A stretch of 62,365 nt of DNA from a virus: positions 1 through 62,365 of IMG/VR virus record IMGVR_UViG_3300008624_000009. The stretch is one strand, 5' to 3'. The stretch's first letter is position 1; each line of letters starts with the position of its first letter. The notes below the pieces were generated by a model. It saw only the letters and a program-made list of their open reading frames with translations, had not been told where the DNA came from and did no database searches. Shown here piece by piece: positions 1,890 to 45,240 of this stretch. The position numbers and the translations under genes are program-made.

Positions 1890-1897
1890 TATAAATA
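1890..1897 (+). promoter_or_regulatory. T4-type late promoter
   Basis: An exact TATAAATA lies 35 bases before the first rightward gene. In T4 this octamer is the -10 element used by the gp55 late sigma factor. Here it is the only promoter-like element seen before the 1932-5863 gene group. Confidence 0.75.
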
Positions 1898-1931: not shown

Positions 1932-2210
1932 ATGAAAACATTTAAATCATTACTTTCAGAAAAAAATGAAAGTGTTATTGAAGAAGCATTAAATATATCT
2001 AAATTGAAAAGATTGAATTTAGTTGATAATGAGAAATTTTCTAAATTTGTTGTGATTATGAGAAAGATGGATGCAGATAAGCCAGTTACTATTAAAGAAA
2101 AAGATATTATTATGGATGTGTTTGATGAATTAATTAATGTTGTAGTTAATGATCAGACACTATTGAATAAAATAAGCAAAAGAAAAACAGGGGATAGTGA
2201 GGGTAAATAA
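1932..2210 (+). CDS. Putative capsid-internal protein with CTS-like N-terminus
   Basis: This 92-residue charged, helical protein has no recognised family. Its first ten residues, MKTFKSLLSE, closely resemble the T4 capsid-targeting sequence (MKTYQEFIAE), including an L-x-E of the type cut by the T4 prohead protease gp21. By established T4 knowledge, such peptides send internal proteins into the prohead before DNA packaging. Carriage in the capsid is an inference here. The gene is first in a late-promoter operon and overlaps the next gene by one base (TAATG). Alternatively the N-terminus is simply a common amphipathic helix. Confidence 0.6.
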   Translation: MKTFKSLLSEKNESVIEEALNISKLKRLNLVDNEKFSKFVVIMRKMDADKPVTIKEKDIIMDVFDELINVVVNDQTLLNKISKRKTGDSEGK

Positions 2211-2731
2211 TGAAATCATTTAAAGAGTTTTTAGAAGAAGAAAAGAAAAAATCATATCAAGTCTATTGTGATATGGATGGAGTTCTTGTAGATTTTATTG
2301 GTGGAATTAAAAGTGAATTAAATCTAAAAAGAGAACCAAATCAAAAAGAAATAGATACTTTTCTTTCTACGTTATATGGCAGTAGTAAAGAATTTTGGAG
2401 TGAATTGGAATGGATGCCAGATGGTAAAAAGCTTTGGGATACATTAAGAGATTTAAATACAGAGATTCTATCTGCTTGTCCAAATAATTGTAAGCTGCAA
2501 CCTAGTGTTATTCGTGGAAAAAAAATGTGGTGTAAAGATAATCTTAAAATATCAACAGGAATTAACATAACTACATCCAGAGGTAAATTAAAATTTGTAG
2601 GTGATAAAACTATTCTTATTGACGACTATATTAAAAATGTAAATGCATGGAAAGCGAAAGGTGGAATTGGTATTCATCATAGAACTGCGAGAGCAACTCT
2701 ATCTGAATTGAAAAAAATCTTACTTGGATAA
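2210..2731 (+). CDS. 5'(3')-deoxyribonucleotidase-like HAD protein with CTS-like leader
   Basis: This 173-residue protein belongs to the HAD phosphatase superfamily in the style of NT5C deoxyribonucleotidases. The catalytic motif DMDGVLVDF sits at residues 21-29 (nucleophile Asp21, acid Asp23), a motif II-type Ser lies in LSACP at 87-91, and the motif IV acidic pair is in GDKTILIDD at 131-139. The family dephosphorylates deoxynucleoside monophosphates. Ahead of the domain is MKSFKEFLEE, a leader like those of its neighbours and like T4 capsid-targeting peptides. The start overlaps the previous stop, which implies coupled translation. The enzyme class is fairly secure. Delivery in the virion is an inference. 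Confidence 0.75.
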   Translation: MKSFKEFLEEEKKKSYQVYCDMDGVLVDFIGGIKSELNLKREPNQKEIDTFLSTLYGSSKEFWSELEWMPDGKKLWDTLRDLNTEILSACPNNCKLQPSVIRGKKMWCKDNLKISTGINITTSRGKLKFVGDKTILIDDYIKNVNAWKAKGGIGIHHRTARATLSELKKILLG

Positions 2732-2737
2732 ATACCA

Positions 2738-3004
2738 ATGCCAAAGTTCAAAGAAAAGTTTAACGCAGATACCGAGGCGCTTAGTTTATCATGGAAGGAT
2801 GAGTTAATTGTTATTGTCTTATTACTTCCAATTCCTATAAATTTTTTGAGTACTTTTTTCACAGACGAAACAATGAGGGATGCTTGGGCTAACTTAGAAT
2901 TGATGCCAGAGTGGTATCAACATTTATTATACATTGTAACATTGGTAGTATTTGGTTTGAAGGCGTTGGTCTTTAGAATCGCGGAGAAATTATTTAAAAC
3001 ATGA
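2738..3004 (+). CDS. Putative holin, two membrane segments
   Basis: This 88-residue protein has two strong hydrophobic segments, at about residues 22-41 (ELIVIVLLLPIPINFLSTFF) and 64-82, joined by a loop with Trp and acidic residues and flanked by charged ends. Size and topology fit a small phage holin of the kind found in marine phages and gene transfer agents. An M15-type endolysin is encoded about 2 kb downstream in the same operon, which supports a lysis role. The 3' end overlaps the next gene by four bases (ATGA). It lacks the MKTF-type leader of its neighbours. It could instead be another small membrane protein. Confidence 0.55.
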   Translation: MPKFKEKFNADTEALSLSWKDELIVIVLLLPIPINFLSTFFTDETMRDAWANLELMPEWYQHLLYIVTLVVFGLKALVFRIAEKLFKT

Positions 3005-4467
3005 AAACCTTTATAGAATCAATAATAGATAAAAATAAAACAGACAATGATGGTTATACAGAATTAGAAGAAGAACAAGAAAATATAAACATAATTCTAT
3101 TAACTGGCTCTAAATCAGAAGATGATGAATTAGTAGTAGGGCAGATGATTAAAACTGCTGAAAAGATGGGACAAAAAGCTAATAAGGTTGTCGTAGGACA
3201 CGCATGGGTTTCTGATTTTGATTTAGAAGCAAAGACTATGACTATTATGAATTATGAAGATACTGGAAAATCTCTTGTTATAAAAGATACAAGTAAGACG
3301 GTTGTTATAGTTAGGGCTGGTGCTTTTACAGGAGAGAATAGTGAAATAGGTCGTGCTATAATTCAAGCATTTCAAGAATCAGGCTGTACTATGTTGAATG
3401 ATTTGAAAGCTTCTGTATTATGTGATAATAAATTTTTATCTTACATAGCATTTTCTAGGAATAATATTCCTATTCCAAGAACAGCATTGATTCCTACGGA
3501 ACAAGCAATCGAAAATGCACACGAAAGAATTGGCGGAAAGTTTCCAGTAGTTATAAAAACTCTATCAGGTACACAGGGTATTGGTGTTTCGATTGTTGAC
3601 AGTATGCAATCATTAGTATCTGTTATACAGTCTCTTAAAAAGTATAATGCAGACCTCTTAATTCAAGAACATATTAAACTCAAATATGATGTTAGAACAC
3701 TTGTACTAGGTGGAAGAATAATAGCATCAACCAAGAGAAATAAAGTTCCTGATGATTTCCGTTCTAATGCTCATTTAGGAGCAACAACGGAACCATATAT
3801 ATTATCAGATAAAGAACAAGTTATTGTAAAAGCTGCTGCAAGAGTTATGGGCGGTTCTTTAGTTGGTGTTGACCATTGTATTGTTGAGAATGAAATTTTT
3901 GTTTTAGAATGTAATGCTTCTCCTGGCATCGCATCTAATTATCATAATTACGATATTACAACAGTACCACAAAGAAATATGGATGAGGTCGGTACAACAA
4001 ATGATATTTATAAAACAATAATAAATTATTTAAAATATCCTTCTAATAGAAAATTAACATCATTCCGAGAATGTGGTTTCTTGGAACAATTATCTATTAA
4101 AGGATGTGGTAAAGTAATTGGAAAGTTTGATACTGGTAATGGTACTAAAGCTTCTATGTTAAAAGTTGACAAGATAGAAGTTGATGGGAATAAAGTGAAG
4201 TGGGAATTACATGAAAAAAAATATATACATAAGTTAGAAGGATGGAGTAAACCAATAACATCTGATTCTAATAGGACACCCAGGCGTCCTATTATTTTAG
4301 TTGATATAATTTTTAATAATAAAACATACTTGAATATTCCAATAGCACTTGACTTGGAATCAACTAGTAGCTTTTTAGTTAATAGAAAATTAATGGAAAC
4401 ATTTAAGGTAGCAGTTAATCCATCTCAGAAATTTCTATTATCTGAATGGATGGAAACAAAATATTAA
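3001..4467 (+). CDS. RimK-like ATP-grasp ligase fused to retropepsin-like domain
   Basis: This 488-residue protein has three parts. Residues 1-11 are a leader (MKTFIESIIDK) similar to neighbouring CTS-like starts. Residues about 30-345 are a RimK-type ATP-grasp ligase. Visible hallmarks are Lys186 in FPVVIKTLSGTQGIG with its glycine-rich loop, the Glu222-223 region, RSNAHLGA at 254-261, and the metal ligands Asp291, Glu303 and Asn305 in FVLECNASPG. RimK-type enzymes add Glu to the C-terminus of ribosomal protein S6 or related acceptors. Residues about 365-488 resemble the RimK-associated retropepsin-like domain, with Asp-Thr-Gly at 377-379 and NRKLM near 461. Substrate and protease activity are unproven. 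Confidence 0.75.
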   Translation: MKTFIESIIDKNKTDNDGYTELEEEQENINIILLTGSKSEDDELVVGQMIKTAEKMGQKANKVVVGHAWVSDFDLEAKTMTIMNYEDTGKSLVIKDTSKTVVIVRAGAFTGENSEIGRAIIQAFQESGCTMLNDLKASVLCDNKFLSYIAFSRNNIPIPRTALIPTEQAIENAHERIGGKFPVVIKTLSGTQGIGVSIVDSMQSLVSVIQSLKKYNADLLIQEHIKLKYDVRTLVLGGRIIASTKRNKVPDDFRSNAHLGATTEPYILSDKEQVIVKAAARVMGGSLVGVDHCIVENEIFVLECNASPGIASNYHNYDITTVPQRNMDEVGTTNDIYKTIINYLKYPSNRKLTSFRECGFLEQLSIKGCGKVIGKFDTGNGTKASMLKVDKIEVDGNKVKWELHEKKYIHKLEGWSKPITSDSNRTPRRPIILVDIIFNNKTYLNIPIALDLESTSSFLVNRKLMETFKVAVNPSQKFLLSEWMETKY

Positions 4468-4478
4468 AAGGACAAATT

Positions 4479-4952
4479 ATGAAAACTTACAAATTATTTA
4501 CTGAGGGAATTAAAAAATGGCGTGATGTGAAAAATCCTCATGCTAAAAGAGAAGCAGGAAAAATGTTGAAAGCACTTGACACAAAAGAAGTTTTAGCATA
4601 TAGTGTCCAGCATGGTGAGTTCTCAAAATTTAAAGATGAAGAAGAATATAAGAAAGCCTTAAAGGGTAGTAAGGGTCGAGCTATGAAATGGGTAAAGGTT
4701 GAAGGACAATCTATTAGTGGACAGGAATTAGAAGAAGCTTTTAATTTCAAACACGCAGTTAAACATGGTTTCTTACATAAGACAGATGAAAAGTATGTTA
4801 AGGATTTAAAAAAGAAAGGCTGGGATATACATGAATTTGTTATGACCAGTAAAGGATTTGAAATTGTTATTAAAAAAGGTTCTAAAAAAATGGAATATTC
4901 TGATAAGCTTCCTGAGAAAGCTCTTATGCAGGCAGCAAAGAAAGCGAGGTAA
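4479..4952 (+). CDS. Lysine-rich putative internal capsid protein
   Basis: The start at 4479 is chosen because AAGGA precedes it and because it gives the N-terminus MKTYKLFTEG, very close to the T4 internal-protein targeting peptide MKTYQEFIAE. An upstream in-frame ATG at 4446 lies inside the previous gene. The 157-residue product is strongly basic, with Lys throughout and a KKAR end, as expected for a protein packed with DNA in the head. No catalytic motif is recognised. T4 IP proteins are small, basic and leader-cleaved. Assignment to that class is by analogy, and no homology was established beyond the leader. Confidence 0.6.
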   Translation: MKTYKLFTEGIKKWRDVKNPHAKREAGKMLKALDTKEVLAYSVQHGEFSKFKDEEEYKKALKGSKGRAMKWVKVEGQSISGQELEEAFNFKHAVKHGFLHKTDEKYVKDLKKKGWDIHEFVMTSKGFEIVIKKGSKKMEYSDKLPEKALMQAAKKAR

Positions 4953-4995: not shown

Positions 4996-5361
4996 ATGTT
5001 GCAAAAGGGAAGATTAACTGAGCATTTTACTAAAAAAGAATTTGATTGTAAGTGTGGTTGTGATACTGGACCAATTAATATGGTATTAGTAGAAAGGTTA
5101 GAACAAGCAAGACGCGATTATGGTAGACCTATGAGAATTAATAGTGGTATCAGATGTTTGGAACATAATAGAAAGATTGGCAGCACAGATACATCATCCC
5201 ATATCAAATGTTTAGCTGCAGATATAAGTTGTATTGGTATGGGTGATAGACACAAGATGCTTAGTATATTTCTTAAATATTTTAAACGAGTTGGCGTACA
5301 CAAAGAGTTTATTCATGTTGACGTTGATTCAGAAAAACCAAACGGAGTATTTGTCTATTAG
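4996..5361 (+). CDS. M15A-type peptidoglycan peptidase (endolysin)
   Basis: This 121-residue peptidase is of the M15A / D-Ala-D-Ala carboxypeptidase type. The family cleaves peptide cross-links in peptidoglycan using a zinc ion. The likely ligands are His69 (STDTSSH), Asp76 (AADIS) and His107 (FIHVD), spaced as usual in the family. SGIRCLEHN at 50-58 is also typical. The start at 4996 is preferred because AAGGAG lies eight bases upstream and the protein then begins, as family members do, with LTEHFTKKEF. Earlier ATGs at 4954 and 4978 would add a short unconserved extension. With the upstream putative holin it would form the lysis pair. Confidence 0.85.
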   Translation: MLQKGRLTEHFTKKEFDCKCGCDTGPINMVLVERLEQARRDYGRPMRINSGIRCLEHNRKIGSTDTSSHIKCLAADISCIGMGDRHKMLSIFLKYFKRVGVHKEFIHVDVDSEKPNGVFVY

Positions 5362-5901: not shown

Positions 5902-7458
5902 ATGTCAGAAACAACTAAATTTGAAAGTTGTCAAGCATTATTTTGTGCATATGTTGATTATGTAGGTAAAACTAAATCTATAAAAAAATTGTTCGGTAAA
6001 GCTACATCCAAAGGACAATGGCAGGAAAGAAATCTTTTATATGAATCTTATGATGATTTTATTAAAGATAAAGAAAATAAAATTGCAATAGCACAATCAT
6101 TTAAACGTGTAGATACACCTGGCATGAATCTTGCTTCTATGGAAACTTTTTTAAAGAAGAATCCTAAATGGTTTTATTCTTCATGCATAATTGCTGTTAA
6201 AATTATATCTTCTTTAAGTGGAATGTCTACCCCGAATGTCAGCTTAACAAAGTTTGCTAGAAGATTAAATGGGCCAGGAATAAAAATGGATTATGTTCGT
6301 GGTGATCAACAGGTAATGGTAATAATAGGAAAACTATTTTCTATTGTAAAAAAAAATACAGAATCAAAGAGTAAAATACTTAAAGGTATGTCTGCTGTAC
6401 CATTCGGTGATGTAAATAAATGGAATCCTGCTGATATTTATTATGCTACTGATAAAGCAAGTTTATCTTTAAAGGGAGCATTAAAAAAAGCTGAAAAAGA
6501 TAAATCATATGGTTTTCCACAATTAAATGATCTAATAGAAGGACTTATGGTATCAGCAGATTTATTACCTCTGTCATTGAAAAAACAAACAAATCCTGCA
6601 AACGCTAAAATTGAATTAGTAAATTTTAATAAAGCAGTTAAAAAAGATAGAATTAGTCAAGTTCAATATCATTCAATAAAATATGAAAAATATACACCGT
6701 CAACCAGAGGGTCTAAAGGTGATGATAAAGAATTACCTTCAGGAGACACAATAGCAAGAGATATATATATTAACATTTGCAATAAAGCCAAACAAAAAAT
6801 AGGACATATTCAAATGAGACACGATCCATCTGGTACTGGTTCTTGGAAAGTTGATTTAAAATATACTGCATCAGAAGCAAGAGGTGGGTCAGTTGTTTCT
6901 TATAAGATCTTTGCTGATATATGGCATTTATCTGATCCTCAATCAGCAGCGAAATTCCGTACAGCATATGAAAAGGGATGTGGTGAATTTCTTGCGAATG
7001 TTTATTCAACAGGTAAAAGAAGTGCAACAGCAAAAAATCCGCCAAAGGAAGATCCAGATGCTAAAATACCAGTAAAAAAGCCAACAAAAAATAAAAAATT
7101 AAACGGTGATTTGACTTATTTTGGTGTTGGTGGTCTTGCACATCATATACCAACAAAAAATAAAAAAGATAATAACGATATTAGGAAAGCAAAAGAATTT
7201 AGTAATCAAAAACGACTTTGGAAAATACCATACCGCGGGGGTATGGGATATAATGATAAGAAAGGTAGATACAAATCATCTGCTTATGATTTTCAAAAAG
7301 GGGAGATTAGTGCTATAACAATAATGAATAGGGTTGGCCCTCTGATAGATAATTGGTTTAAGAATAATACAAAGTTAAGGGATGGCTTTATTCAAAACTT
7401 ATATCAATATGTAAGTTCAAGACATCCTGATTCCAGTAAATTCGTAATTGCAAAATAA
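5902..7458 (+). CDS. Hypothetical 518-residue late protein
   Basis: The family is not recognised. The protein is basic (many Lys), soluble, and has a helical N-terminal half and a low-complexity Lys/Pro/Asn linker at about residues 370-400 (NPPKEDPDAKIPVKKPTKNK). The motif WNPADIYYA near residue 175 looks like a conserved signature. The gene sits directly behind a late promoter and immediately upstream of the small basic protein and gp25, a position often held by structural or assembly proteins in marine T4-like phages. A virion or head-associated role is an inference from position only. Confidence 0.6.
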   Translation: MSETTKFESCQALFCAYVDYVGKTKSIKKLFGKATSKGQWQERNLLYESYDDFIKDKENKIAIAQSFKRVDTPGMNLASMETFLKKNPKWFYSSCIIAVKIISSLSGMSTPNVSLTKFARRLNGPGIKMDYVRGDQQVMVIIGKLFSIVKKNTESKSKILKGMSAVPFGDVNKWNPADIYYATDKASLSLKGALKKAEKDKSYGFPQLNDLIEGLMVSADLLPLSLKKQTNPANAKIELVNFNKAVKKDRISQVQYHSIKYEKYTPSTRGSKGDDKELPSGDTIARDIYINICNKAKQKIGHIQMRHDPSGTGSWKVDLKYTASEARGGSVVSYKIFADIWHLSDPQSAAKFRTAYEKGCGEFLANVYSTGKRSATAKNPPKEDPDAKIPVKKPTKNKKLNGDLTYFGVGGLAHHIPTKNKKDNNDIRKAKEFSNQKRLWKIPYRGGMGYNDKKGRYKSSAYDFQKGEISAITIMNRVGPLIDNWFKNNTKLRDGFIQNLYQYVSSRHPDSSKFVIAK

Positions 7459-34135: not shown

Positions 34136-37100
34136 ATGGCTCGTACAAGAATAAAAAGTTCTAACATAGAAAATAATTCAGTTAAGAACGAAGATATATC
34201 ATCCACAGAAGGTTTGGATGCTTCTAAGATTATTTCTGGTACTACATTACCCGCCGTAGATGCCTCCCAATTACTTAATACACTTGATTCTATATCTGAT
34301 AATTCCATTCCCTTTCAAAAATTAACAGATAGTTCCATTCCTCTATCAAAATTATCTACAACCAATGCTGGAACTACTGGGCAAGTATTAATTAGAGATG
34401 ATACTGGTGAAATTGAATTAGTTGATGCACATACTGTTATATCTGATAATTCCATTCCTCTAACAAAGTTATTTACAGCAAATTCTGGAACCGCAGGACA
34501 ATTACTCAAAAAAAATGCATCTGGTGAATTAGAGTTTGTTGACGACCAAGTTTCGGATGTTGGAGCATCAACAGTTGGTGGTGATCTTTCTGGTAGTGTT
34601 AATAACGCACAAATTAATGATAATGCTATTGGTATTTCAAAACTTAATGTTTCTGGTAGTGGTACTAATGGACAAGCTCTAGTAACAGATGGTAGTACTG
34701 GATTATCATGGGCTGATGTTACTTCTGATCCAACAATGGGTGGAGATTTAAGTGGAACTGCATCTAATGCTCAAATTAATAATGGAGTTATAGGTAACGC
34801 ACAAATTTCAGATGTTGATGCTAGTAAAATATCTGGTACATTACCTCACGGTGTTTCAAGTGGTGGTACTCTTGGTTCATTACATAAATCTTCATGGGCA
34901 GATGATAATACAGTAATTGTTAATCTTACAAATAGTGCTACTGGAATAGGAAATGCAGTTGTTAAAGTATATGAAGAATATCTTGATCCAGCAAAACAAA
35001 ATATAACTAATAATGACTGGGATCTTACTACCAACAATGATATTGGTGGAGAATTTCATTTAAATAATTTTACTCAAGGTGCTACTATTACCCCACAAGC
35101 TACAACAGGCACAGGGGTTCAGTTTATATTTACTGGGCCAGATGGTGCGAGTAATACATGGGAAACTCTTGGGTTTAGTGCTGGTTCATATACTAGTGGA
35201 GAATTTTATACAATTAAAAACAGTCAAGGTAATGGTGTAGCTAAAATTACAAGTACAAGTGGAAATATTGCAACTTGTGATATAATAGAAGATTTCCCTA
35301 ATACTAATCCTTTAATCCTGCCATTGGTAAGAAATTGTGAATTTACGGATGGTAAATTTCAATTATCAGGGAAAACTGATATTGATACATCACCACAAAT
35401 GCATGGTGGTAGTTTTGATATATCACCATCAAGTAATGACAATGATTCAAATCTTTATCATTCAGATATTATTGGAATAGATGATACCAGAGCTCTTACG
35501 TTATGGAATGGTACTGATGGTGGAAATCATGGTTCAAATGATTATGGTGTTGCAATAGTTAAAATGTTTGATGATCCGAGTACATTTAAAACGCTTGAGA
35601 CACCACATAATTCCAGTCCCAGCAATTTTGATGATTATAGTACAGATTGGTTAAAGGGTAATAGTATATTTGGTGTTACCGTACAGCAAGTAACTATTTG
35701 TAAATTATCTGAAGAAAGATTTATAATTGCTGGAGTATCAACTAATAATGCTACAACATTTAAATTAGCTTCTCTTACTATACCATCTGCTTCTACTCTA
35801 ACTCAGGAAGTCTCAGTACAAGGAAGCATTAGTGATATTGGCCCTCCTTCATCACACAATAATCAAAATGTTCGGGATGTTAGACTTGCTAGAATTTCTG
35901 ATACTAGATTTATGGCAGTTGCTTCGGTGCAATCTTCAGCTCATGGTAGTAATTGGGTTCCTTTTTATTCTATGCATGAGGTTGATGCTTCTGGTAATTT
36001 ATCTCAATTGGCTTATCACGAATTATTAGATGGTGATAATGGTACAGCTCAGGGGATAGGTTCACCAAATGAAGGAACACCTATTTTTCAAATATTTGGA
36101 GCAAATGATCCAACTCTAAATACCTTAACAGGGGTATATATTTTTTACGACAGTTATGGTGAAAATCCGAACTTTATTCAAACTAAAATTAATAGAAATA
36201 CTGGAAGTGGAAACGGCCCTCAATCTGTGTATCTATATTCGACAGTAGCTGGTGCTTTCAAAGATTCATTTGGAGATAGTAATGGATTAACTCGTATTGC
36301 TCAACCAAACAAACATTGTTTGATACCTTTTGAAAGATTAGATAATCAAGATCTTTATGGAGTTTATATGTGGGCAGATTCCACACATGGAATAGAAGCA
36401 GCTGTTTTGCGTATAGCTCCAGATGTAAGTGGAAATCTTAATAATCTTAATTCTTCTGCAAGGCCATTATGGTTTGGGGGAATACCAGTTAGTAATGGAA
36501 CTCCAAATTTTAGTGGTTATGGTGGTTCAGCAACAAATGTTACCTCAGAACAATGCACGACTTTATCTGGAACATTATATGCTACTGGTAGTTTTAGTAG
36601 TCCCGACACAATGCATGGTTTATATTCTTATAAACAGCCAGGAGTAAATCAACTCAAACAAGGTAAATTTGTTGGTGGTGATGATTTTAATACTCAGACT
36701 ACTTCCCACGGCCATGGTTCAAATTTAACTTTTACTTATTTAGCAAATATTAGTGGACATTCAACTACTGGTAATGTTGATAAAATGGCATCTACAACTT
36801 TAGGAGTACATGACCATACACACGGGCAAGAAGAAGATGTTTTACCAAACTGTTCACTCGTAACGTATAAACATGGTGATGATCATATTTATGCTAAAAT
36901 AGTAAGGCATTCCACAGAAGTAACGACTTATGTTAGTGCAGAATGGGCCACAACAATATCTGGTGTAGATACAATAGATACTACAAATTATGAACAGATA
37001 AATTCAATTACCCCAACACAAACAGGTGGTAATGATGATATTCTTTATGCATTTGCTACTGATATAGATCAAGATAGTGGTGGAGAAATCATGGGTGGAA

Positions 37101-37615
37101 CTTTTTGGGTACTTGATCCCACATATGGACTTAGAAACGTACTTACATCTAGGGCTTCCGTACATGGTGGAACAGATACAGAATGGTACTATAATAATGC
37201 TAGTGATGGAAGTGCAGCATGGGATGCAGCGTGGATCGGTTTGGAGTCTAATAATTATATTGGGCCAGGTTTTCAAACTGGTTTTAATATACAGGCGAAT
37301 AGTGCTTTTCGTGCAGCAATAAAAGCTAATTCTTCAAATGGAATGACTAAGACAGATCTAGATTTTCGTAATGCAGGAGGTTGGCAAGATTTTCCCACAG
37401 CAACTAACAAATTAGCTGTTGCTATTGGAATTAGAACTTATAATAGTAGTGTTACACCAACAGTAGATAAAGTAACTATTACTTATGGTTCTCCAGCAGT
37501 ACACAGGGATAAGACACACGAATATACAATCGACATAGTGGATGTAGATACTATTGAAGTAACTTCACCTAATAGTGGTGGGCCTCGTAATGCTAGGATA
37601 TATGTAACCTCATAA
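34136..37615 (+). CDS. Large tail fibre/adhesin, 1159 residues
   Basis: Residues 1-230 are shaft modules: two SDNSIP..KL blocks, three GTTGQVLIRDDTGEIELVD-type units, and GGDLSGSVNNAQI / GGDLSGTASNAQI. Residues about 230-400 are a beta domain (WADDNTVIVNLTNSATGIGN). Residues about 430-900 contain loose repeats with 'LSEERFIIAG' and 'ISDTRFMAVA' strands, possibly a second kind of propeller different from the six-repeat family. The last 250 residues end in a beta domain (VAIGIRTYNSSVTPTVDKVTI). No enzymatic signature was seen. It has its own late promoter and, at its 3' end, the promoter of the propeller cluster. The receptor-binding role is inferred. Confidence 0.68.
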   Translation: MARTRIKSSNIENNSVKNEDISSTEGLDASKIISGTTLPAVDASQLLNTLDSISDNSIPFQKLTDSSIPLSKLSTTNAGTTGQVLIRDDTGEIELVDAHTVISDNSIPLTKLFTANSGTAGQLLKKNASGELEFVDDQVSDVGASTVGGDLSGSVNNAQINDNAIGISKLNVSGSGTNGQALVTDGSTGLSWADVTSDPTMGGDLSGTASNAQINNGVIGNAQISDVDASKISGTLPHGVSSGGTLGSLHKSSWADDNTVIVNLTNSATGIGNAVVKVYEEYLDPAKQNITNNDWDLTTNNDIGGEFHLNNFTQGATITPQATTGTGVQFIFTGPDGASNTWETLGFSAGSYTSGEFYTIKNSQGNGVAKITSTSGNIATCDIIEDFPNTNPLILPLVRNCEFTDGKFQLSGKTDIDTSPQMHGGSFDISPSSNDNDSNLYHSDIIGIDDTRALTLWNGTDGGNHGSNDYGVAIVKMFDDPSTFKTLETPHNSSPSNFDDYSTDWLKGNSIFGVTVQQVTICKLSEERFIIAGVSTNNATTFKLASLTIPSASTLTQEVSVQGSISDIGPPSSHNNQNVRDVRLARISDTRFMAVASVQSSAHGSNWVPFYSMHEVDASGNLSQLAYHELLDGDNGTAQGIGSPNEGTPIFQIFGANDPTLNTLTGVYIFYDSYGENPNFIQTKINRNTGSGNGPQSVYLYSTVAGAFKDSFGDSNGLTRIAQPNKHCLIPFERLDNQDLYGVYMWADSTHGIEAAVLRIAPDVSGNLNNLNSSARPLWFGGIPVSNGTPNFSGYGGSATNVTSEQCTTLSGTLYATGSFSSPDTMHGLYSYKQPGVNQLKQGKFVGGDDFNTQTTSHGHGSNLTFTYLANISGHSTTGNVDKMASTTLGVHDHTHGQEEDVLPNCSLVTYKHGDDHIYAKIVRHSTEVTTYVSAEWATTISGVDTIDTTNYEQINSITPTQTGGNDDILYAFATDIDQDSGGEIMGGTFWVLDPTYGLRNVLTSRASVHGGTDTEWYYNNASDGSAAWDAAWIGLESNNYIGPGFQTGFNIQANSAFRAAIKANSSNGMTKTDLDFRNAGGWQDFPTATNKLAVAIGIRTYNSSVTPTVDKVTITYGSPAVHRDKTHEYTIDIVDVDTIEVTSPNSGGPRNARIYVTS

Positions 37616-37619
37616 AAAA

Positions 37620-37627
37620 TATAAATA
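37620..37627 (+). promoter_or_regulatory. T4-type late promoter
   Basis: An exact TATAAATA, five bases after the preceding stop, leads the run of seven propeller genes (37666-46178). No further exact octamer occurs inside that run, so it probably forms one transcript. Confidence 0.78.
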
Positions 37628-37665
37628 ACAATAAAGATAAAAACATTCAAAAAAGGATATAGTCC

Positions 37666-38805
37666 ATGAGTGTAACGAAGGTAACTAACGATAATATAGT
37701 TGATATTTCTGCTGAAACAGTAAGTGGTACTTTACCAGCATTAAACGCAAGTGCAGTTTTAAATATGCCTACTGGTGAATCAATCATAGAATCAGCAAAT
37801 GATCCAGCTTTTGATTCCGATTTAGAATTAGGAAAAATGTGGTTGAATACGACAAACGGTGAAATGTTTGTTTGTACTGATGCTACGCCAGGGCTCAATG
37901 TTTGGAAAAATATTGCAGCTGGTTCTGACCATGTAGAGCCTCCTTTTCAATATGCGGGTACACAAACTGCTTGGATTGTTGGTGGTCATGCAAGTATGTC
38001 TAATGTCGATAATATGGAAACATTTTCATTAACTTCTGATGGTAATGCTACAATGTTGAGTGATGTTACCATGAATAATAATTATGCAGCTACTGGGACA
38101 AAATCAAATACTAGTGGTTATATTCTCGGTGGCGGGTGGCCTATTAATAGCGATATAGAAAAATATTCTTTTGAAAGTGGTGGAGATTCAACAAATGTAG
38201 GTACACTTAATACAGGAAGATATTGTATTGCTGGATTTTCAACAGGATCACATGGTTACGGTGTTTCTGGACTTCTAACTTCAACTGGTAGTGGAGCAGT
38301 AGATAAATTTTCATATAGTAATGAAGGCAGTGCTGTTGAGGTTGGTAATATGCCTTCTACGGGTTATGCTGCTGGAGTTACCGGCCCTGATAATGGTTAT
38401 ATCTATACAGGAAACGGAAATTCAGATATTGAAAAATATACTTATGCATCTGATAGTAGTGCTGTTCATTCTACTATGTATAATACAAGACATTCCCAAG
38501 CTTGTCATTCTACTTCAACTCATGGATATAGTTCTGGTGGGCATACTGGATCATGGGTATCTACTATTGATAAATTTTCATTTGCAAATACTAGTAATGC
38601 AGTTCATATTACGGATTTAGCATATGATAAATGTAGATGTCATGGTTATTCATCTGAAACACATGGATATACAAGTGGTGGATCTTCTAATCAACCTGGC
38701 GGTCCAGAAAGATTAGAAAAATTTTCATTTGCATCTGAAACTACTGCAACAATAATTGGTTCATGTATTAATAGAGATTCTTGGTCTAGTGGTACACAAT
38801 TTTAA
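37666..38805 (+). CDS. Six-repeat beta-propeller adhesin 3
   Basis: This adhesin has 379 residues. The anchor is VTKVTNDNIVDISAETVSGT with the collar LGKMWLNTTNGEMFVCTDAT at about 47-66 and a WKNIAAG end. Six blades follow, with cores METFSL, IEKYSF, VDKFSY, IEKYTY, IDKFSF and LEKFSF, and HGY..GG turns between them. The C-terminus is SSGTQF. The anchor is nearly identical in DNA to that of the next gene. It is the first gene of the seven-gene propeller run behind its late promoter. Kelch-type blade geometry is inferred from the repeat pattern. Confidence 0.75.
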   Translation: MSVTKVTNDNIVDISAETVSGTLPALNASAVLNMPTGESIIESANDPAFDSDLELGKMWLNTTNGEMFVCTDATPGLNVWKNIAAGSDHVEPPFQYAGTQTAWIVGGHASMSNVDNMETFSLTSDGNATMLSDVTMNNNYAATGTKSNTSGYILGGGWPINSDIEKYSFESGGDSTNVGTLNTGRYCIAGFSTGSHGYGVSGLLTSTGSGAVDKFSYSNEGSAVEVGNMPSTGYAAGVTGPDNGYIYTGNGNSDIEKYTYASDSSAVHSTMYNTRHSQACHSTSTHGYSSGGHTGSWVSTIDKFSFANTSNAVHITDLAYDKCRCHGYSSETHGYTSGGSSNQPGGPERLEKFSFASETTATIIGSCINRDSWSSGTQF

Positions 38806-38820
38806 AAAAGGAAATTACAA

Positions 38821-39966
38821 ATGTCTGTAACTAAAGTAACTAACGATAATATAGTTGATGTTTCTGCTGAATTAGTAAGTGGTACTTTACCAGCATTGGA
38901 TGCAAGTGCAGTTTTAAATATGAATACTGGTGAATCAATAACAGAATCAGCAAATGATCCAGCTATAGATTCTGATTTAGGATTAGGGAAATTGTGGTTG
39001 AATACTACAAATGGCGAAATGTTTGTTTGTACTGACGCAACGGCTGGACTTAATGTTTGGAAAAATATTGCAGCTGGTGCTGATCATGTAACACCCCCAT
39101 ACTCATTTCAAGGTACTCAGAGTGGATGGGTTACTGCTGGTAATGCTGCTGATAATACTTTTGAAACTTATTCTCTTGCTTCAAATAATAATGCAGTAGC
39201 ATCTGGCAGTACTTTAGGGACTGTTACAGAAGGCCCTGTTATTTCTAAATCTAAAACAGATATGTATGTCATGGGTGGTTATGTGCCTGGGGCACTTATT
39301 ACAGATGTCCAAAAAGTTTCATTTTCAACTGCTGCAGCATCATCTACTGTTAATAATTTAAATTCAGGAAAATATTGTGGTGCTGGTGCAAGTAGTGAAC
39401 TTAGAGGGTATCAAATCGCTGGTTGTGATGGTCATGACCATGTTGAATATCAAAGTCATGTAAACGACGGCGATAGTGCTGATATTGGTAATTTATATCA
39501 AAATGAAGCTGGATTTGCAACTTCTATGTCTGGGCCAACCGAAGTTCTTACTGATGTAGGTTGGTATAATCTTAATGCCGTTCATCATTTTTCATTTGCA
39601 AATGATGCTACTAAAACCAAACATTGTGATATGGTTGGGAATGGTTATGCACAAGGCGGTTGTTCATCAACCACACATGGTTATACTGCGTCTGCTCATC
39701 AATGGCGTACTACGATTAGGAAAGTAGGATTTGCTAGTGGTTCAACACAGATTAATCATCCTACTTTAGCAGTAACAAATCAAATGGGTTCTGCTGGTTG
39801 TGGTACTTGTTCAGAAACTCATGGTTATCAAAATGGGGGTTATCCTGATAACGGAAATAGTAATACTCATTATATTGAATCATGGAGTTTTGCTAGTGAA
39901 AGTGGAGTATCACATATTGGAAATCTCACACAAAAAAGAGCTTGGAGTGTAGGAGCACAAAATTAA
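38821..39966 (+). CDS. Six-repeat beta-propeller adhesin 4
   Basis: This adhesin has 381 residues. The anchor (VTKVTNDNIVDVSAELVSGT, LGKLWLNTTNGEMFVCTDAT) is almost the same as in the preceding gene, whereas the propeller differs in nearly every loop. Blade cores are FETYSL, VQKVSF, HVEYQS, VHHFSF, IRKVGF and IESWSF. The third blade is degenerate. A GCGTC Cys pair and YQNGGYPDNGN precede the last blade, and the C-terminus is SVGAQN. The leader AAAAAAGGAAATTACAA is shared with other copies. It looks like one half of a tandem-duplicate pair. Confidence 0.75.
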   Translation: MSVTKVTNDNIVDVSAELVSGTLPALDASAVLNMNTGESITESANDPAIDSDLGLGKLWLNTTNGEMFVCTDATAGLNVWKNIAAGADHVTPPYSFQGTQSGWVTAGNAADNTFETYSLASNNNAVASGSTLGTVTEGPVISKSKTDMYVMGGYVPGALITDVQKVSFSTAAASSTVNNLNSGKYCGAGASSELRGYQIAGCDGHDHVEYQSHVNDGDSADIGNLYQNEAGFATSMSGPTEVLTDVGWYNLNAVHHFSFANDATKTKHCDMVGNGYAQGGCSSTTHGYTASAHQWRTTIRKVGFASGSTQINHPTLAVTNQMGSAGCGTCSETHGYQNGGYPDNGNSNTHYIESWSFASESGVSHIGNLTQKRAWSVGAQN

Positions 39967-39994
39967 ATTTATAAAATAAAAAGGAAAATAAAAA

Positions 39995-41197
39995 ATGGCT
40001 GTAACCAAAATCACAAAAGAAAATATTAGTGATGTATCAGCAACTAAATTAACTGGTTCACTTCCTGCTATTGATGGACAATACATTACGAATGTACCAG
40101 CTGGTGAGGTAATGATAAAATCAGCAGCAAATCCAACTAATACCTCTAATCATTCTGCTGGAACCATGTGGGTAAATACAACAAATGGCGAAATCTTTGT
40201 TTGTACTGATGCTTCGACAGATGAAAATACTTGGACAAATGTTGGGCCTGGAACAACTGAAGTTGCAACAGTAGTGTGGACATATCAGGGAACACAATAT
40301 GGTTATGTAGTTGGGGGTTATCATGGTAGTCCCGGCCGTAATGATGAAATCGAAAGATATTCTTTTACTTCTAATAATGTTAATAATAATATTGGTAGTT
40401 TGATAGCACTTAATACAGTTCCTAGTGGACATAGTAGTACTGATTATGGATGGGTAACTGGTGGATGGAATGGTGCTGATATTACTACTATCGAAAAGTT
40501 TTCTTGGGCTTCATCAGCAAGTTCTGCTGCAACTGGAGCAACTGTTGGTGGTAATATGTCTTTGGCTACTGCAGCTAGTACTCAGACTGGGACTACTGCT
40601 TATTTAACAGGTGGATTTGATAATCCGAATGTTACAACTCATCATACTACTAGGAAATTTTCATTTGATTCAACAACAGATGCTGTTATCGTAGGAACTA
40701 TGGCATTTTCTGGTGGAATTTATCACAATATTGGTTGGTCTTCAGATACACATGGTTATTCTGCAGGCGGATATCCTTATGGGCGTTCTCCAAATACTGT
40801 TTCTCACATTGAAAAATTTGCATTTGCAACAGATACACAACAAGCTGTTGGTTGTGGAGATCTTGCTTCACCAGCTTCATATGTTTCTGGTTCAAACTCT
40901 ACAACGTATGGTTATCGGGATGGTGGATGGAATGGTGGTAGTTATACAGCAAATATGGAAGCTTATTCTTTTGCATCAGAAGGTACTGCTTCTACAATAG
41001 GTGTTCTTACTTATGCTCGTAATTGGTCTGGTGGCTCATCATCAACTACGCATGGTTATCATCATGGCGGTAGAAATACTAGTGGTACTTATATGACAGA
41101 TGTTCACCAATATTCATATGCATCACACGGTAATGCTAATAATATAATGAATGTAGCAACAGCACGTGGCGGAGTTCCTAGTAATATACAATTTTAA
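39995..41197 (+). CDS. Six-repeat beta-propeller adhesin 5
   Basis: This adhesin has 400 residues. The anchor is AVTKITKENISDVSATKLTG with the collar AGTMWVNTTNGEIFVCTDAS and NVGPGT. Six blades have cores IERYSF, IEKFSW, TRKFSF, IEKFAF, MEAYSF and VHQYSY. Turns carry many Gly, His, Trp and Asn residues (DYGWVTGGWNG, THGYHHGGRNTSG), typical of sugar-contacting loops, though no binding site is proven. The C-terminus is VPSNIQF. Its first 66 bases are identical to those of the next gene, marking a second tandem pair. Confidence 0.75.
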   Translation: MAVTKITKENISDVSATKLTGSLPAIDGQYITNVPAGEVMIKSAANPTNTSNHSAGTMWVNTTNGEIFVCTDASTDENTWTNVGPGTTEVATVVWTYQGTQYGYVVGGYHGSPGRNDEIERYSFTSNNVNNNIGSLIALNTVPSGHSSTDYGWVTGGWNGADITTIEKFSWASSASSAATGATVGGNMSLATAASTQTGTTAYLTGGFDNPNVTTHHTTRKFSFDSTTDAVIVGTMAFSGGIYHNIGWSSDTHGYSAGGYPYGRSPNTVSHIEKFAFATDTQQAVGCGDLASPASYVSGSNSTTYGYRDGGWNGGSYTANMEAYSFASEGTASTIGVLTYARNWSGGSSSTTHGYHHGGRNTSGTYMTDVHQYSYASHGNANNIMNVATARGGVPSNIQF

Positions 41198-41218
41198 TAA
41201 AATAAAAAGGAAAGTAAA

Positions 41219-42454
41219 ATGGCTGTAACCAAAATCACAAAAGAAAATATTAGTGATGTATCAGCAACTAAATTAACTGGTACGCTTCCTGCTATTGATG
41301 GACAATTTCTGTCTAATTTACCAGCTGGTGAGATAATGGTGAAATCAGCATCAAATCCAACTAATACTGCAAATAATTCTGCTGGAACCATGTGGATAAA
41401 TACTACAACTGGCGAAATGTTTGTTTGTACTGATGCGACAACAGATGCTAATGCTTGGACAAATGTTGGGCCCGGTGAAACAGAAGTTACAACATCATAT
41501 GCTCCTGCTGGTGAACAAGGAATGACATATGGATATGTGTGTGGATCACATACTGGAGCAGGGATGGATCCATTGGCAGCAATCGACAAATATGCTTTTG
41601 CAAGTGCTAGTAATGGAATTGCTAATGTTGGTTCTCTTTCTACGACCAGAAATGGGCCAAATACTAATCATTCATGGACTCATGCTTTTATATCAGCAGG
41701 TGCTCAAAATGGGAATGATTCAACCATAGAAACTTTTGCATTTGCTTCTGATGGTGCTTGTACTAATTGGGCTGACATGGCTGCCCATACTCAGTATGGT
41801 TATGGTTGTGGTTCTAGTGATAAAGATGGTGGATATGGTTATTTAAATGGGGGAAGAAGAACAAGTGGTAGTGGGCCATCATATACAACTAATAAAGTTT
41901 CTAGGTTTCCATTTGCATCTCAATCAAATGCTACTAATATTGGTACTTTGCAAATGTGGCAAGATTGCCCAGGCAATACAGTAGATAGGGTTAATGGTTA
42001 TGCTAATTATCATGGTGGTGCGGATGCGGGTTCTAATCATTTACCAAGTTATAATTATAGATATGCATTTGCATCAAGTGTTAGTTCATCTCAATTTTCT
42101 AATATGTTATCTGGAAATTGGCATTATTATGGAGAAGGAAGTCAAAGTGCTACTGATGGTTTTTTAGCTGGTGGATATGAACCATCCACAGCTAATTATA
42201 CAGCAGCTCAAATTCAACAACATTCATTTGCAAGTCTTTCTAATAGTGTTCTATGGGGTTCATTAACACATGGCAGATATGCTGCAGCGTGTCATTCATC
42301 ACCCGATCATGGATGGAGTGCTCATGGAATGGCAGGTTCGGGATGGAATCAAAATTGTCTGGATAAATTTTCATTTGCTTCATCTGGTAATTCTATTGAT
42401 GTGGGAGATATGTTATTTCAACCTAGATGTTATAGTCCTGGCGTTCACGTTTAA
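41219..42454 (+). CDS. Six-repeat beta-propeller adhesin 6
   Basis: This adhesin has 411 residues. It shares its anchor with the previous gene (AVTKITKENISDVSATKLTG; collar AGTMWINTTTGEMFVCTDAT) but has an independent head. Blade cores are IDKYAF, IETFAF, VSRFPF, YNYRYAF, IQQHSF and LDKFSF, with Trp/Gly/Ser-rich connecting loops (GNWHYYGEGSQSATDG). The C-terminus is SPGVHV. The fourth blade has lost the usual I-x-K core, while overall spacing keeps six units. It is transcribed in the seven-gene propeller run and its Shine-Dalgarno is AAAAAGGAAAG. Confidence 0.75.
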   Translation: MAVTKITKENISDVSATKLTGTLPAIDGQFLSNLPAGEIMVKSASNPTNTANNSAGTMWINTTTGEMFVCTDATTDANAWTNVGPGETEVTTSYAPAGEQGMTYGYVCGSHTGAGMDPLAAIDKYAFASASNGIANVGSLSTTRNGPNTNHSWTHAFISAGAQNGNDSTIETFAFASDGACTNWADMAAHTQYGYGCGSSDKDGGYGYLNGGRRTSGSGPSYTTNKVSRFPFASQSNATNIGTLQMWQDCPGNTVDRVNGYANYHGGADAGSNHLPSYNYRYAFASSVSSSQFSNMLSGNWHYYGEGSQSATDGFLAGGYEPSTANYTAAQIQQHSFASLSNSVLWGSLTHGRYAAACHSSPDHGWSAHGMAGSGWNQNCLDKFSFASSGNSIDVGDMLFQPRCYSPGVHV

Positions 42455-42478
42455 TTTTAATAAAAAAGGAAATAAAAA

Positions 42479-43672
42479 ATGTCGTCAACTAAAATACAAG
42501 ATACTGTTATAGAAAGTTTAGATGCTAGTAAACTTACAGGAACATTTGGAGCAATAGATGGAAGTAATTTAACAAATTTGCCTCCATCTGGTGAAGTTAT
42601 AACAAAAGATACAGTTAATCCAGAAGCAAATAGTAATCCAGCAACTGGTGTAGGTACACTTTGGTTAAATACGCAAGATGGTGAAATGTATTGTTGCACA
42701 GATGCTACTACTGATGCTAATGTTTGGAAAACTGTTAGTACTTCTTCTGGTTCAGGTGGTTCTGGTTCTCCCGCTCCGGCAAATGAATCTTTTGTGATGG
42801 GTGTAAGTGATGGATATATGTCTGGTGGAGAAAATGATGCAACAGGTATAGATGTTCACAAAGTATCTTTTTCAAGTGATGGTGATGCTGCAGATCATGG
42901 TGATTTAACAGAAGCAAGAAATGCTGTTTGTGGATCCTCATCTGGTACACATGGATATATGATGGGTGGCTATAAACCCGGCTATCCTAGTAGTGCATCA
43001 ACCAGAGTTGATAAATTTGCTTTTGCTAGTAATGCATTTGGTACACAAGTATCAAATTTGCCTTGGGGTGATTTTAATTGTGCTGGACATTCATCATGGG
43101 CAGAAAATAAAAGTTTTATGAGTGGTGGATCTTATTATGGTCATGCTGTTCTTTCTTGGGGTCATGCTACAGACAATTCGATAGGACATCCACTAAACTT
43201 ATCAGGTACTAAAAATGAACACGCAGGTACTAGTTCAGCTACACATGGTTATTTAGCCGGAGGCAATCCTAATAATGGTATGCAAAAATTTCAATTTGCA
43301 AGTGGATATGCTGTTTCTGCCGGTATTGGAAATTTACACACTTATGTTCAGGAAATGGGTTCTTCAAATTCAGCTGACTGGGGTTATACTCATGCTGGTC
43401 ATGATGGAAGTTGGAACAATACAGCTACAATTCAAAAACACTCTTTTGTTTCAGATGGAACTGTTGGATTTGTTGGCAATTTATCAGAACCAAAAAATGC
43501 AAGTGGTGGTTTTTCTTCAACAACATATGGTTATTGTGGAGGCGGAAAACCAGCTGCTGGTGGACATACTGATAGAATTGAAAAATATCCTTTTGCTTCA
43601 GATTCAGGTGCTAGTACTGTTGGCGTTTTAATGAATCAATTACAACATCTTCCTGCTGGAAATCAAGTTTAA
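42479..43672 (+). CDS. Six-repeat beta-propeller adhesin 7
   Basis: This adhesin has 397 residues. The anchor is more divergent (SSTKIQDTVIESLDASKLTG) but keeps the collar VGTLWLNTQDGEMYCCTDAT. A Gly/Ser/Pro linker (SSGSGGSGSPAPAN, about 90-104) separates anchor and head, which is longer than in other copies. Blade cores are VHKVSF, VDKFAF, VLSWGHA, MQKFQF, IQKHSF and IEKYPF, again six. The C-terminus is PAGNQV. It is the only member of the run without a near-identical neighbour, so its anchor may be older or of mixed origin. Confidence 0.74.
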   Translation: MSSTKIQDTVIESLDASKLTGTFGAIDGSNLTNLPPSGEVITKDTVNPEANSNPATGVGTLWLNTQDGEMYCCTDATTDANVWKTVSTSSGSGGSGSPAPANESFVMGVSDGYMSGGENDATGIDVHKVSFSSDGDAADHGDLTEARNAVCGSSSGTHGYMMGGYKPGYPSSASTRVDKFAFASNAFGTQVSNLPWGDFNCAGHSSWAENKSFMSGGSYYGHAVLSWGHATDNSIGHPLNLSGTKNEHAGTSSATHGYLAGGNPNNGMQKFQFASGYAVSAGIGNLHTYVQEMGSSNSADWGYTHAGHDGSWNNTATIQKHSFVSDGTVGFVGNLSEPKNASGGFSSTTYGYCGGGKPAAGGHTDRIEKYPFASDSGASTVGVLMNQLQHLPAGNQV

Positions 43673-43696
43673 ATTATAAAAAAAAGGAAATAACAA

Positions 43697-44941
43697 ATGG
43701 CTGTAACTAAAATAACAGATGAAAATATAGTTGATGTTGATGCTTCAAAACTAGTAGGTTCTTTTGGAACGCTGGATGGTTCTAATTTGACTAATGTAAC
43801 AGTAGGTAAAACAGTTACTAAAGCAACTAGTGATCCAACACAGGAAACAAATCCTGCTGATGGCGTAGGAACATTATATTTGAATACTTCTAGTGGTGAG
43901 CTATTCTGTTGTGTAGATGCTACTACGGATTTTAATGTTTGGAAAAATACTGGATTAGGTACAACAGGTACAATAAAATATGTAGTTCCGAACAATTATG
44001 TATATCAAGGAACACAGAATGGTTATTCATTGGGTGGGCATTTAGATTTTGGTGATATTCAAAAGTTTTCATTCACATCTAATGGAAACAGTACAACTAT
44101 TGGCCAATTAGCTTGGTCTACTTATAATGGTGTAGGAAGTCAGAGTGAAACAGATGGTTATAAATGTAAAGGAACAGATTGGGGTGGTACACCATCTTCA
44201 CGATATGATATTCAAATGTTTTCATTTGCTTCTGAAGGTAATTCAGTAGCTACTGGATTTTATGCTTTGGATGCGGGTACTGAATATTCACATGGTGGCT
44301 CTTCTAGTTCCACAGACGGAATCCATTGTTATTTTACTGGTGGTTGGAATAGTACTCTCGGTGGTGGTATTACTGCTATTCAAAGTTTTTCATTTCCTGC
44401 AACATCTGATGCTATTGATGTTGGTGATTTAAGTACAGATGCCAATTCTGGCTGGGGTTGGTCATATGATAATACCTATGGTTATCATGCTGGTGGTTGG
44501 GGAGATAGTAATGGGGGTGAAAATGTAAAAAGAATACAAAAATTTCCATTTGCTCAATCTGGTATAGCAGGTTCAGTTATCAGTTCTGAATTAACAGTTG
44601 CAAGACGGCATTGTAACGGACAAGGTATATGTTCAACAACTCATGGTTTCGTAGCGGGTGGAGATACTGGGAATAATAATGAAACAAATGTTATTGATAA
44701 AATGTCATTTGCAACAGAAGCAACTATGACAGATCATGGCGATTTAAATTATGCTGTTTCTTATATGGCTGGAAACGCAAGTTCAACAACTGATGGCTAT
44801 GTTTTTGGTGGACAGTATATGCCAAATTATACGAAAGTAGATCACATTCAAAAATTTGCATATTCGTCTAATACAACTGCTAGTGATATTGGAAATATAT
44901 CAGCGGGTCCTCTTAAATCAGTTGCAGGATGTCATAACTAA
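43697..44941 (+). CDS. Six-repeat beta-propeller adhesin 8
   Basis: This adhesin has 414 residues. The anchor is AVTKITDENIVDVDASKLVG with the collar VGTLYLNTSSGELFCCVDAT and NTGLGTTG. Six Kelch-like blades have cores IQKFSF, IQMFSF, IQSFSF, IQKFPF, IDKMSF and IQKFAY. The C-terminus is SVAGCHN. Its first approximately 275 bases are nearly identical to those of the next gene, yet the next gene carries the other blade class. It is transcribed in the propeller run and has the shared leader AAAAAAGGAAATAACAA. Confidence 0.75.
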   Translation: MAVTKITDENIVDVDASKLVGSFGTLDGSNLTNVTVGKTVTKATSDPTQETNPADGVGTLYLNTSSGELFCCVDATTDFNVWKNTGLGTTGTIKYVVPNNYVYQGTQNGYSLGGHLDFGDIQKFSFTSNGNSTTIGQLAWSTYNGVGSQSETDGYKCKGTDWGGTPSSRYDIQMFSFASEGNSVATGFYALDAGTEYSHGGSSSSTDGIHCYFTGGWNSTLGGGITAIQSFSFPATSDAIDVGDLSTDANSGWGWSYDNTYGYHAGGWGDSNGGENVKRIQKFPFAQSGIAGSVISSELTVARRHCNGQGICSTTHGFVAGGDTGNNNETNVIDKMSFATEATMTDHGDLNYAVSYMAGNASSTTDGYVFGGQYMPNYTKVDHIQKFAYSSNTTASDIGNISAGPLKSVAGCHN

Positions 44942-45240
44942 TAAGTCTTTAAAAAGGAAATAACAAATGTCTGTAACTAAAGTAACAGATGAAAATATAG
45001 TTGATGTTGATGCTTCAAAACTAGTAGGTTCTTTTGGAAATGTTGATGGTTCTAATTTGACTAATGTACCTCTTGGCAAATCAATTACTAAAACAACTAG
45101 TGATCCAACACAGGAAACAAATCCTGCTGATGGCGTAGGAACATTATATTTGAATACTTCTAGTGGTGAGTTATTCTGTTGCGTAGATGCTACTACGGAT
45201 TTTAATGTTTGGAAAAATACTGGATTAGGTACAACAGGTA
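43697..45240 (+). repeat. Duplicated anchor-coding block (43697-43970 and 44967-45240)
   Basis: Two direct copies of about 274 bases, 1270 bases apart, encode the anchors of adhesins 8 and 9. Long stretches are identical, for example the segment coding ASDPTQETNPADGVGTLYLN-type sequence. Shared bases extend upstream into the ribosome-binding leader. Similarity stops abruptly where the propellers begin. Confidence 0.8.

Follow-up and report, generated by a model that had tools for sequence, protein, structure and literature searches.

The T4-type capsid-targeting sequence (CTS) appears to be used as a detachable tag on four proteins encoded near the start of a viral DNA fragment, IMG/VR record IMGVR_UViG_3300008624_000009. 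This reading, in which the tagged cargo would be packed into the head, partly cut and injected, is given a probability of roughly three in four. The whole record, 62,365 bases long and classed as linear and as a fragment, is called the window below. Recognisable gp6 and gp14 homologs affiliate this marine virus with the T4 superfamily, and by gp14 distance (at most 38% identity to cyanophage gp14) it falls outside the T4 family. An earlier note had pointed out that four of the first five genes of one cassette start with MK[TS][FY], a count that stands. The same tag on four unrelated proteins suggests that they are probably packed into the head and injected with the DNA; we infer the packaging, cleavage and injection of the four from sequence. 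The five genes and the four leaders are as follows.

1932-2210 (+): ORF1, 92 residues, function unknown; relative in contig L004, 58% identical
1932-1961 (+): leader 1, MKTFKSLLSE (F4, L7, L8, E10); fits the strict T4-rule motif
2210-2731 (+): HAD-type 5'(3')-deoxyribonucleotidase, 173 residues; phrog_2643, E 2.2e-25
2210-2239 (+): leader 2, MKSFKEFLEE (F4, F7, L8, E10); fits the strict T4-rule motif
2738-3004 (+): hydrophobic protein of 88 residues, leaderless (MPKFKEKFNA); phrog_2524, function unknown
3001-4467 (+): RimK-type ATP-grasp ligase, 488 residues; PF08443, E 6.3e-34
3001-3030 (+): leader 3, MKTFIESIID (F4, S7, I8, D10); the weakest fit
4479-4952 (+): Lys-rich protein, 157 residues, function unknown; no family match
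4479-4508 (+): leader 4, MKTYKLFTEG (Y4, F7, T8, E9); targeting residues fit

The rules against which these leaders can be read come from T4. According to PMC9026906, IPIII needs no more than its first ten residues for targeting, which works through residues 4 and 7; processing works through residues 8 and 10, an Asp at position 10 blocks processing and allows targeting, and gp21 cleaves after L/I-x-E. T4 served as positive control, with MKTYQEFIAE on IPII and IPIII and MKTFKEF on IPI. The T4 gene gp61.1 (NC_000866, 18966-19130; L037, L120), encoding 54 residues of unknown function, also matches the CTS in full (MKTFKEFIKED). An aromatic residue 4 with a hydrophobic residue 7 is present in ORF1, the nucleotidase and the Lys-rich protein, and L or I at 8 with Glu at 10 in ORF1 and the nucleotidase (RimK has I8/D10 and the Lys-rich protein T8/E9). 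By these residues, ORF1 and the nucleotidase fit the full rule, the Lys-rich protein fits for targeting only, and RimK, with Ser7 and Asp10, fits poorly and is the weakest of the four. The earlier claim of an L/I-x-E-type site in three of the four leaders holds for ORF1 (L8-S-E10) and the nucleotidase (L8-E-E10) and fails for the others within ten residues: RimK has I-I-D at the leader site and its first canonical site at L22-E-E24, and the Lys-rich leader has F-T-E9 in place of one. By the T4 data, Asp10 of RimK would allow targeting and hinder cutting at that point, and the tag may be retained on this protein. A small charged protein encoded two genes ahead of gp21 in L146 starts with MKSFKLYLEG, which shares the register of the Lys-rich leader.

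Related contigs keep the tag on the same genes and carry it on different genes elsewhere, which supports the capsid-targeting reading. All four orthologs in L004 retain the leader (MKSYKTFKTE on ORF1, MKSFKQFLQE on the nucleotidase, MKSFREAVID and MKTYKLFAEE), as do two orthologs in L003; the nucleotidase of L124/G012 begins MKKYSQFIKE. RimK leaders in relatives read MKTFREAVID, MKSFREAVID and MKTFKETLIE, with Asp at residue 10 in L003 and L004 and Glu in L005, where the ligase is 59-60% identical and keeps MKTFKETLIE with a shorter linker. More distant RimK relatives with similar N-termini occur in Mosig (MQVQPFKNYLEEA) and Melnitz (TTG start, LTQKFSQFITEE). Among the aligned nucleotidases, 8/11 are extended on the N-terminal side of the domain and the remaining 3 (L135-L137), which are leaderless, begin at the domain; among the 40 matches listed, phage homologs align to the window protein only from residue 16-18 onward. 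In G012 the nucleotidase (65% identity to that of the window), a cytidylyltransferase and a protein of 138 residues all begin with leaders, and two further, looser leaders lie between these. G045, a 74-kb clade contig with gp21 and gp23, has its own cassette of clustered leaders: MKSFKNFLKEA, MLSFKEVLNED (a DUF6267 protein), MKSFRKFVKEG, MKGFGTFIKEN and MKSYRKFINEA (a cytidylyltransferase). The carriers had been called unrelated in the earlier note, and the comparison agrees: after removal of the first 14 residues, 11 families can be told apart among the 13 carriers of the window, G012 and G045, with no body similarity beyond the nucleotidase pair and the cytidylyltransferase pair. To judge by these N-termini the leader is modular, kept on orthologs and attached to other genes in other contigs.

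Two further arrangements were seen in passing. At L132:5718-7070 (+) the leader MKSFKSFLSEK precedes a P-loop (GGAGSGKG) region fused to a nucleotidase domain, and in KVP40 (NC_005083, 37733-39834; L119) the neighbouring unknown genes 0065 and 0066 near gp24 begin MLGNFDSFLSEN and MKQFCNFLAEV.

By three kinds of control, genes in the T4 superfamily begin with the T4-rule motif more often than expected. Open reading frames (ORFs) were called by length, with no gene finder, and one start per gene was chosen blind to the strict motif, M..[FY]..[FYLMI][LI].E. Genomes were split into pieces of up to 20 kb, so that border-crossing genes are lost from the counts, in which YerA41 and immuto are incomplete and G018 and G019 have near-identical stretches in common. 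The first control shuffled each N-terminal column among genes in 2000 trials, preserving N-terminal composition. Across 18 T4-superfamily genomes and contigs the motif opens 12/3291 genes, against a shuffle mean of 1.80, and 0/2000 shuffles reach 12, although some matches look like chance, such as a RecA-like protein in G035. The window and four near contigs together have 6/141 genes against a shuffle mean of 0.15. G015 (253 kb, no gp21 match) has 0/387, and the motif stands at 20/3964 gene starts compared with 3/13157 internal Met residues. A looser motif was dropped, being only weakly over control (82/3964 gene starts and 108/13157 internal Met).

MK[TS][FY] taken by itself was also given up as a signal. 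Outside the clade it was observed 13 times against a shuffle mean of 7.9, a count reached by 119/2000 shuffles. The information lies in residues 4, 7, 8 and 10, which make up the T4-rule motif. At that background (13/3291) the chance of at least four such starts in five is about 1e-9, a rough guide only, as the locus was picked after the sighting. A search of the rest of the window, which the earlier note had called for, found no further MK[TS][FY] start among its 65 called ORFs.

How far does the leader extend? IMG/VR was scanned with a DNA pattern for MK-x-F-K-x-F-x-x-E, the control being the same codons in permuted order. The leader pattern matched at least 120 stretches and the permuted one 17 in all. 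Among the matches listed, 128 in number, 123 open ORFs of at least 40 residues, which form 56 families as single-linkage blastp clusters, the largest with 52 members. Among the same listed matches, 115/120 loci have a T4-superfamily-like neighbour gene, as against 9/17 for the permuted pattern; 13/120 have a neighbour like the control genome, whose database is smaller than the T4-superfamily one. An in-frame stop close upstream was dropped as a test of true starts, as the control behaves alike (127/128 and 17/17). Carriers include an ART-PolyVal protein (L458), an HD_4 hydrolase (L428), a methyltransferase (L425), cytidylyltransferases and DUF6267 proteins. The leader-bearing ADP-ribosyltransferase (ART-PolyVal) lies at L458:6037-6813 (+), and the leader-bearing HD_4 hydrolase, which by eye resembles alarmone hydrolases, at L428:1226-1783 (-). 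At L449:5915-9422 (-) five genes in about 3 kb have near-identical leaders (MKTFKQFI.E or MKSFKSFINE) on unrelated bodies.

The machinery that would act on such a tag is present in relatives, a further point in favour of capsid targeting. gp21 (PF03420) was found in 12/12 named T4-superfamily genomes, in the clade contigs G027 and G028 and in 7/8 further contigs. One of these seven, L297, comes from metagenome 3300009370, which also holds contigs matching the window at 100%; it could belong to the window virus or to another. In 57/75 gp23 homologs, the L/I/V-x-E that lies closest ahead of the conserved core has the form [FY][LI]xE (in the other 18 the search expression picked a different site), and the leaders show F-L-E-E, F-L-Q-E, F-L-K-E, F-I-K-E or L-L-S-E where gp23 has its site. 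The predicted scissile site of clade gp23 has the same F-L-x-E form as the leaders.

Support from virions comes from a sister family. Sullivan et al. 2010 report the putative cytidylyltransferase T4-GC190 among the proteins of purified S-SM1 virions by mass spectrometry (PMC3037559). The S-SM1 protein (SSM1_190) begins MKKFSAFLNEAERSF (MKKFSAFLNEA), its counterparts in Syn9 and P-SSM4 begin MKKFSAFL[SK]EA, and the cytidylyltransferase of G012 falls in the same PHROG (phrog_395) and sits in the syntenic place ahead of SSM1_195 and SSM1_196 relatives. This detection is, in our assessment, the strongest experimental support for the capsid-targeting reading; it concerns the sister family and the presence of the protein in the particle.

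Several observations weigh against that reading. Besides the unremarkable frequency of MK[TS][FY] outside the clade, RimK is without the hydrophobic residue 7, and a canonical L/I-x-E within ten residues is found in only 2/4 leaders. The nucleotidase is leaderless in some gp21-bearing viruses (L135, G023). The YerA41 relative of RimK has no leader, yet is annotated 'structural protein'; this match is given little weight because the YerA41 list of 63 particle proteins, compiled at a 5% false discovery rate, includes polymerases (PMC7354516). A search for gp21, as the earlier note had advised, found neither it nor capsid genes in the 62-kb fragment, which starts near baseplate genes and ends just past gp14 and its neighbour, ahead of the head genes. 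Particle mass spectrometry can detect contaminants, and the virion evidence comes from another virus, S-SM1.

Could the leader target the prohead core for a purpose other than delivery? The proteins might serve head assembly, as scaffold partners or in DNA condensation, or be mere passengers, an alternative that is unlikely overall and is the one that survives best. It draws on L146, where the MKSFKLYLEG protein lies near gp21 and where the basic family phrog_23027, leader-bearing in Melnitz, sits beside gp21 in the head operon (6007-6372, +), and on the head-assembly defects of T4 IPIII mutants (PMC9026906). Against it, the carriers have recognisable enzyme domains (nucleotidase, RimK, cytidylyltransferase, ADP-ribosyltransferase, HD hydrolase, methyltransferase), so action in the cell fits better than scaffolding, and T4 IPI and IPIII themselves act in the host cell. 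A leader-bearing member of phrog_23027 lies at L121:4026-4418 (+), within a cytidylyltransferase cassette.

A role away from the head, as a tail or baseplate targeting element or a translation-start feature, is less probable still. The window cassette does lie just upstream of gp25 and gp6 homologs, but the G012 and G045 cassettes sit elsewhere, syntenic with the T4-GC190 locus; moreover, conservation falls on the features that mapping in T4 assigned to capsid targeting, the gp23 cut site is matched, and the column shuffle preserves N-terminal composition. Coincidence, with an AT-rich genome yielding similar N-termini rich in Lys and Phe, has in its favour only how common MK[TS][FY] is in other records (13 against 7.9); it is very improbable given the shuffle and permuted-pattern controls and the conservation of the leader among orthologs.

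Under the capsid-targeting reading, residues around 4 and 7 would bind the prohead core, building each tagged protein into the prohead. gp21 would then remove the tag where F-L-x-E or L-x-E is present (ORF1, nucleotidase), so that the mature protein would lie free in the head and pass into the host together with the DNA. As infection begins, the RimK-like peptide ligase could modify ribosomal protein S6 or another host protein.

A wider proposal stands at even odds: that T4-superfamily viruses of the sea have one interchangeable head-loading tag, a delivery code by which any protein acquiring it is injected. Cassettes of at least five unrelated tagged proteins (ADP-ribosyltransferase, HD hydrolase, methyltransferase, RimK ligase, nucleotidase, cytidylyltransferases and many unknowns) would then make up a large repertoire of injected effectors, still unread, whose members sequence alone is enough to list. 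Use of the CTS by T4-like phages to load a variety of proteins is an idea already published (PMC9026906). The enzymes among the cargo and their grouping in cassettes are new, as are the occurrence beyond the T4 family and a rule by which candidates can be picked out from sequence. Nothing in the open-access literature surveyed, mostly as titles, names marine cargo with the leader on enzymes outside coliphages. The injected proteins known for T4-like phages so far number a handful, from coliphages, and a leader readable from sequence would give a list of them for the most abundant myoviruses of the sea. The candidate cargo would act before phage gene expression, on nucleotides, ribosomal protein S6 or the like, through ADP-ribosylation and possibly on alarmones, and the tags would be natural leaders for loading proteins into T4-type capsids.

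The products themselves are known to different degrees. ORF1 had no family match in searches and one relative only, in L004. The nucleotidase scores 22.4 bits against PF06941, below the 24.8 cut-off; its DMDG motif is conserved, with D21 and D23 of the HAD catalytic DxD motif invariant in the 11 aligned rows. For RimK the ATP-grasp domain scores 117.7 bits with PF08443, over the curated cut-off of 21, and the protein reaches 137.2 bits against TIGR00768, below its 143.4 cut-off; the nearest PDB matches are S6-glutamate ligases (E about 1e-27). These profile matches indicate an ATP-grasp protein of RimK type. Its C-terminal part (window 4100-4460, +) has no Pfam match and contains a KFDTGNGTKASM motif (DTGN), which we take to be reminiscent of retropepsin-like RimB partners. 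The window RimK had no match in 16 other records, and its AlphaFold model is of no use, with a predicted local distance difference test score (pLDDT) of 33.

The Lys-rich protein starts at 4479, although its longest ORF opens at 4446; the leader Met is the start in L003, L004 and L006. It had no family or phage match in profile searches and the phages collection, and its own viral scan returned nothing beyond the window's record, its relatives surfacing through the RimK scan. Its AlphaFold model is weak (pLDDT 66, residues 1-15 below 50) and gave no PDB fold match by Foldseek at E <= 0.001.

The cassette runs in the order ORF1, HAD 5'-nucleotidase, leaderless hydrophobic protein (conserved in L003 and L004), RimK-type ligase, Lys-rich protein and M15 peptidase, with the gp25 and gp6 homologs directly downstream. 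The M15 peptidase (4996-5361, +) and the hydrophobic 88-residue protein (2738-3004, +) flank RimK and the Lys-rich protein, perhaps as a lysis pair around cargo genes. Ahead of the cassette lies one further feature:

1890-1897 (+): TATAAATA, late-promoter-type -10 element (the stretch recurs in relatives)

This is presumably the -10 element of a T4-type late promoter, and the cassette genes are probably transcribed late. The AAAAGTCTTATAAATAT stretch that contains TATAAATA also precedes the L004 cassette (7791) and the L005 operon (3238). Within the window 15/17 copies of the element are on the gene strand; as a total, 17 is no more than chance would give (mean 14.3). Farther along, fibre-like genes that resemble one another (MSVTKVT.DNI.D...) follow in a row at window 34136-46178 (+), apparently as tandem paralogs.

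Four known systems come closest. The T4 internal head proteins IPI, IPII and IPIII share with the window proteins a ten-residue leader with the same positions, an L/I-x-E site and unrelated bodies; unlike them, the window carriers include enzymes, their genes lie in one operon, and two of the four leaders have no canonical site. T4 Alt is an injected ADP-ribosyltransferase that is packed into the head, has its propeptide cut by gp21 and is delivered with the DNA. The proposed cargo would resemble it as a head-packed enzyme, cut by gp21 and delivered along with the DNA, although the window cargo has no such enzyme (the leader-bearing ART-PolyVal is in L458). The cyanophage protein T4-GC190 of S-SM1, Syn9 and P-SSM4 is likewise a metabolic-type enzyme with a leader (MKKFSAFL[NSK]EA), present in S-SM1 virions (PMC3037559). 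It is a different enzyme, absent from the window, although the family is leader-bearing in G012 and G045, and the accessible excerpts of PMC3037559 give no capsid-targeting description for it. The ejection proteins of the giant phages SPN3US and phiKZ have an N-terminal propeptide cut by a gp21-like protease, as described in PMC5694885; their propeptides run to around 100 residues, with an S/A-x-E motif, unlike the ten residues and F-L-x-E of the window leaders, and both systems have head cargo with an N-terminal propeptide.

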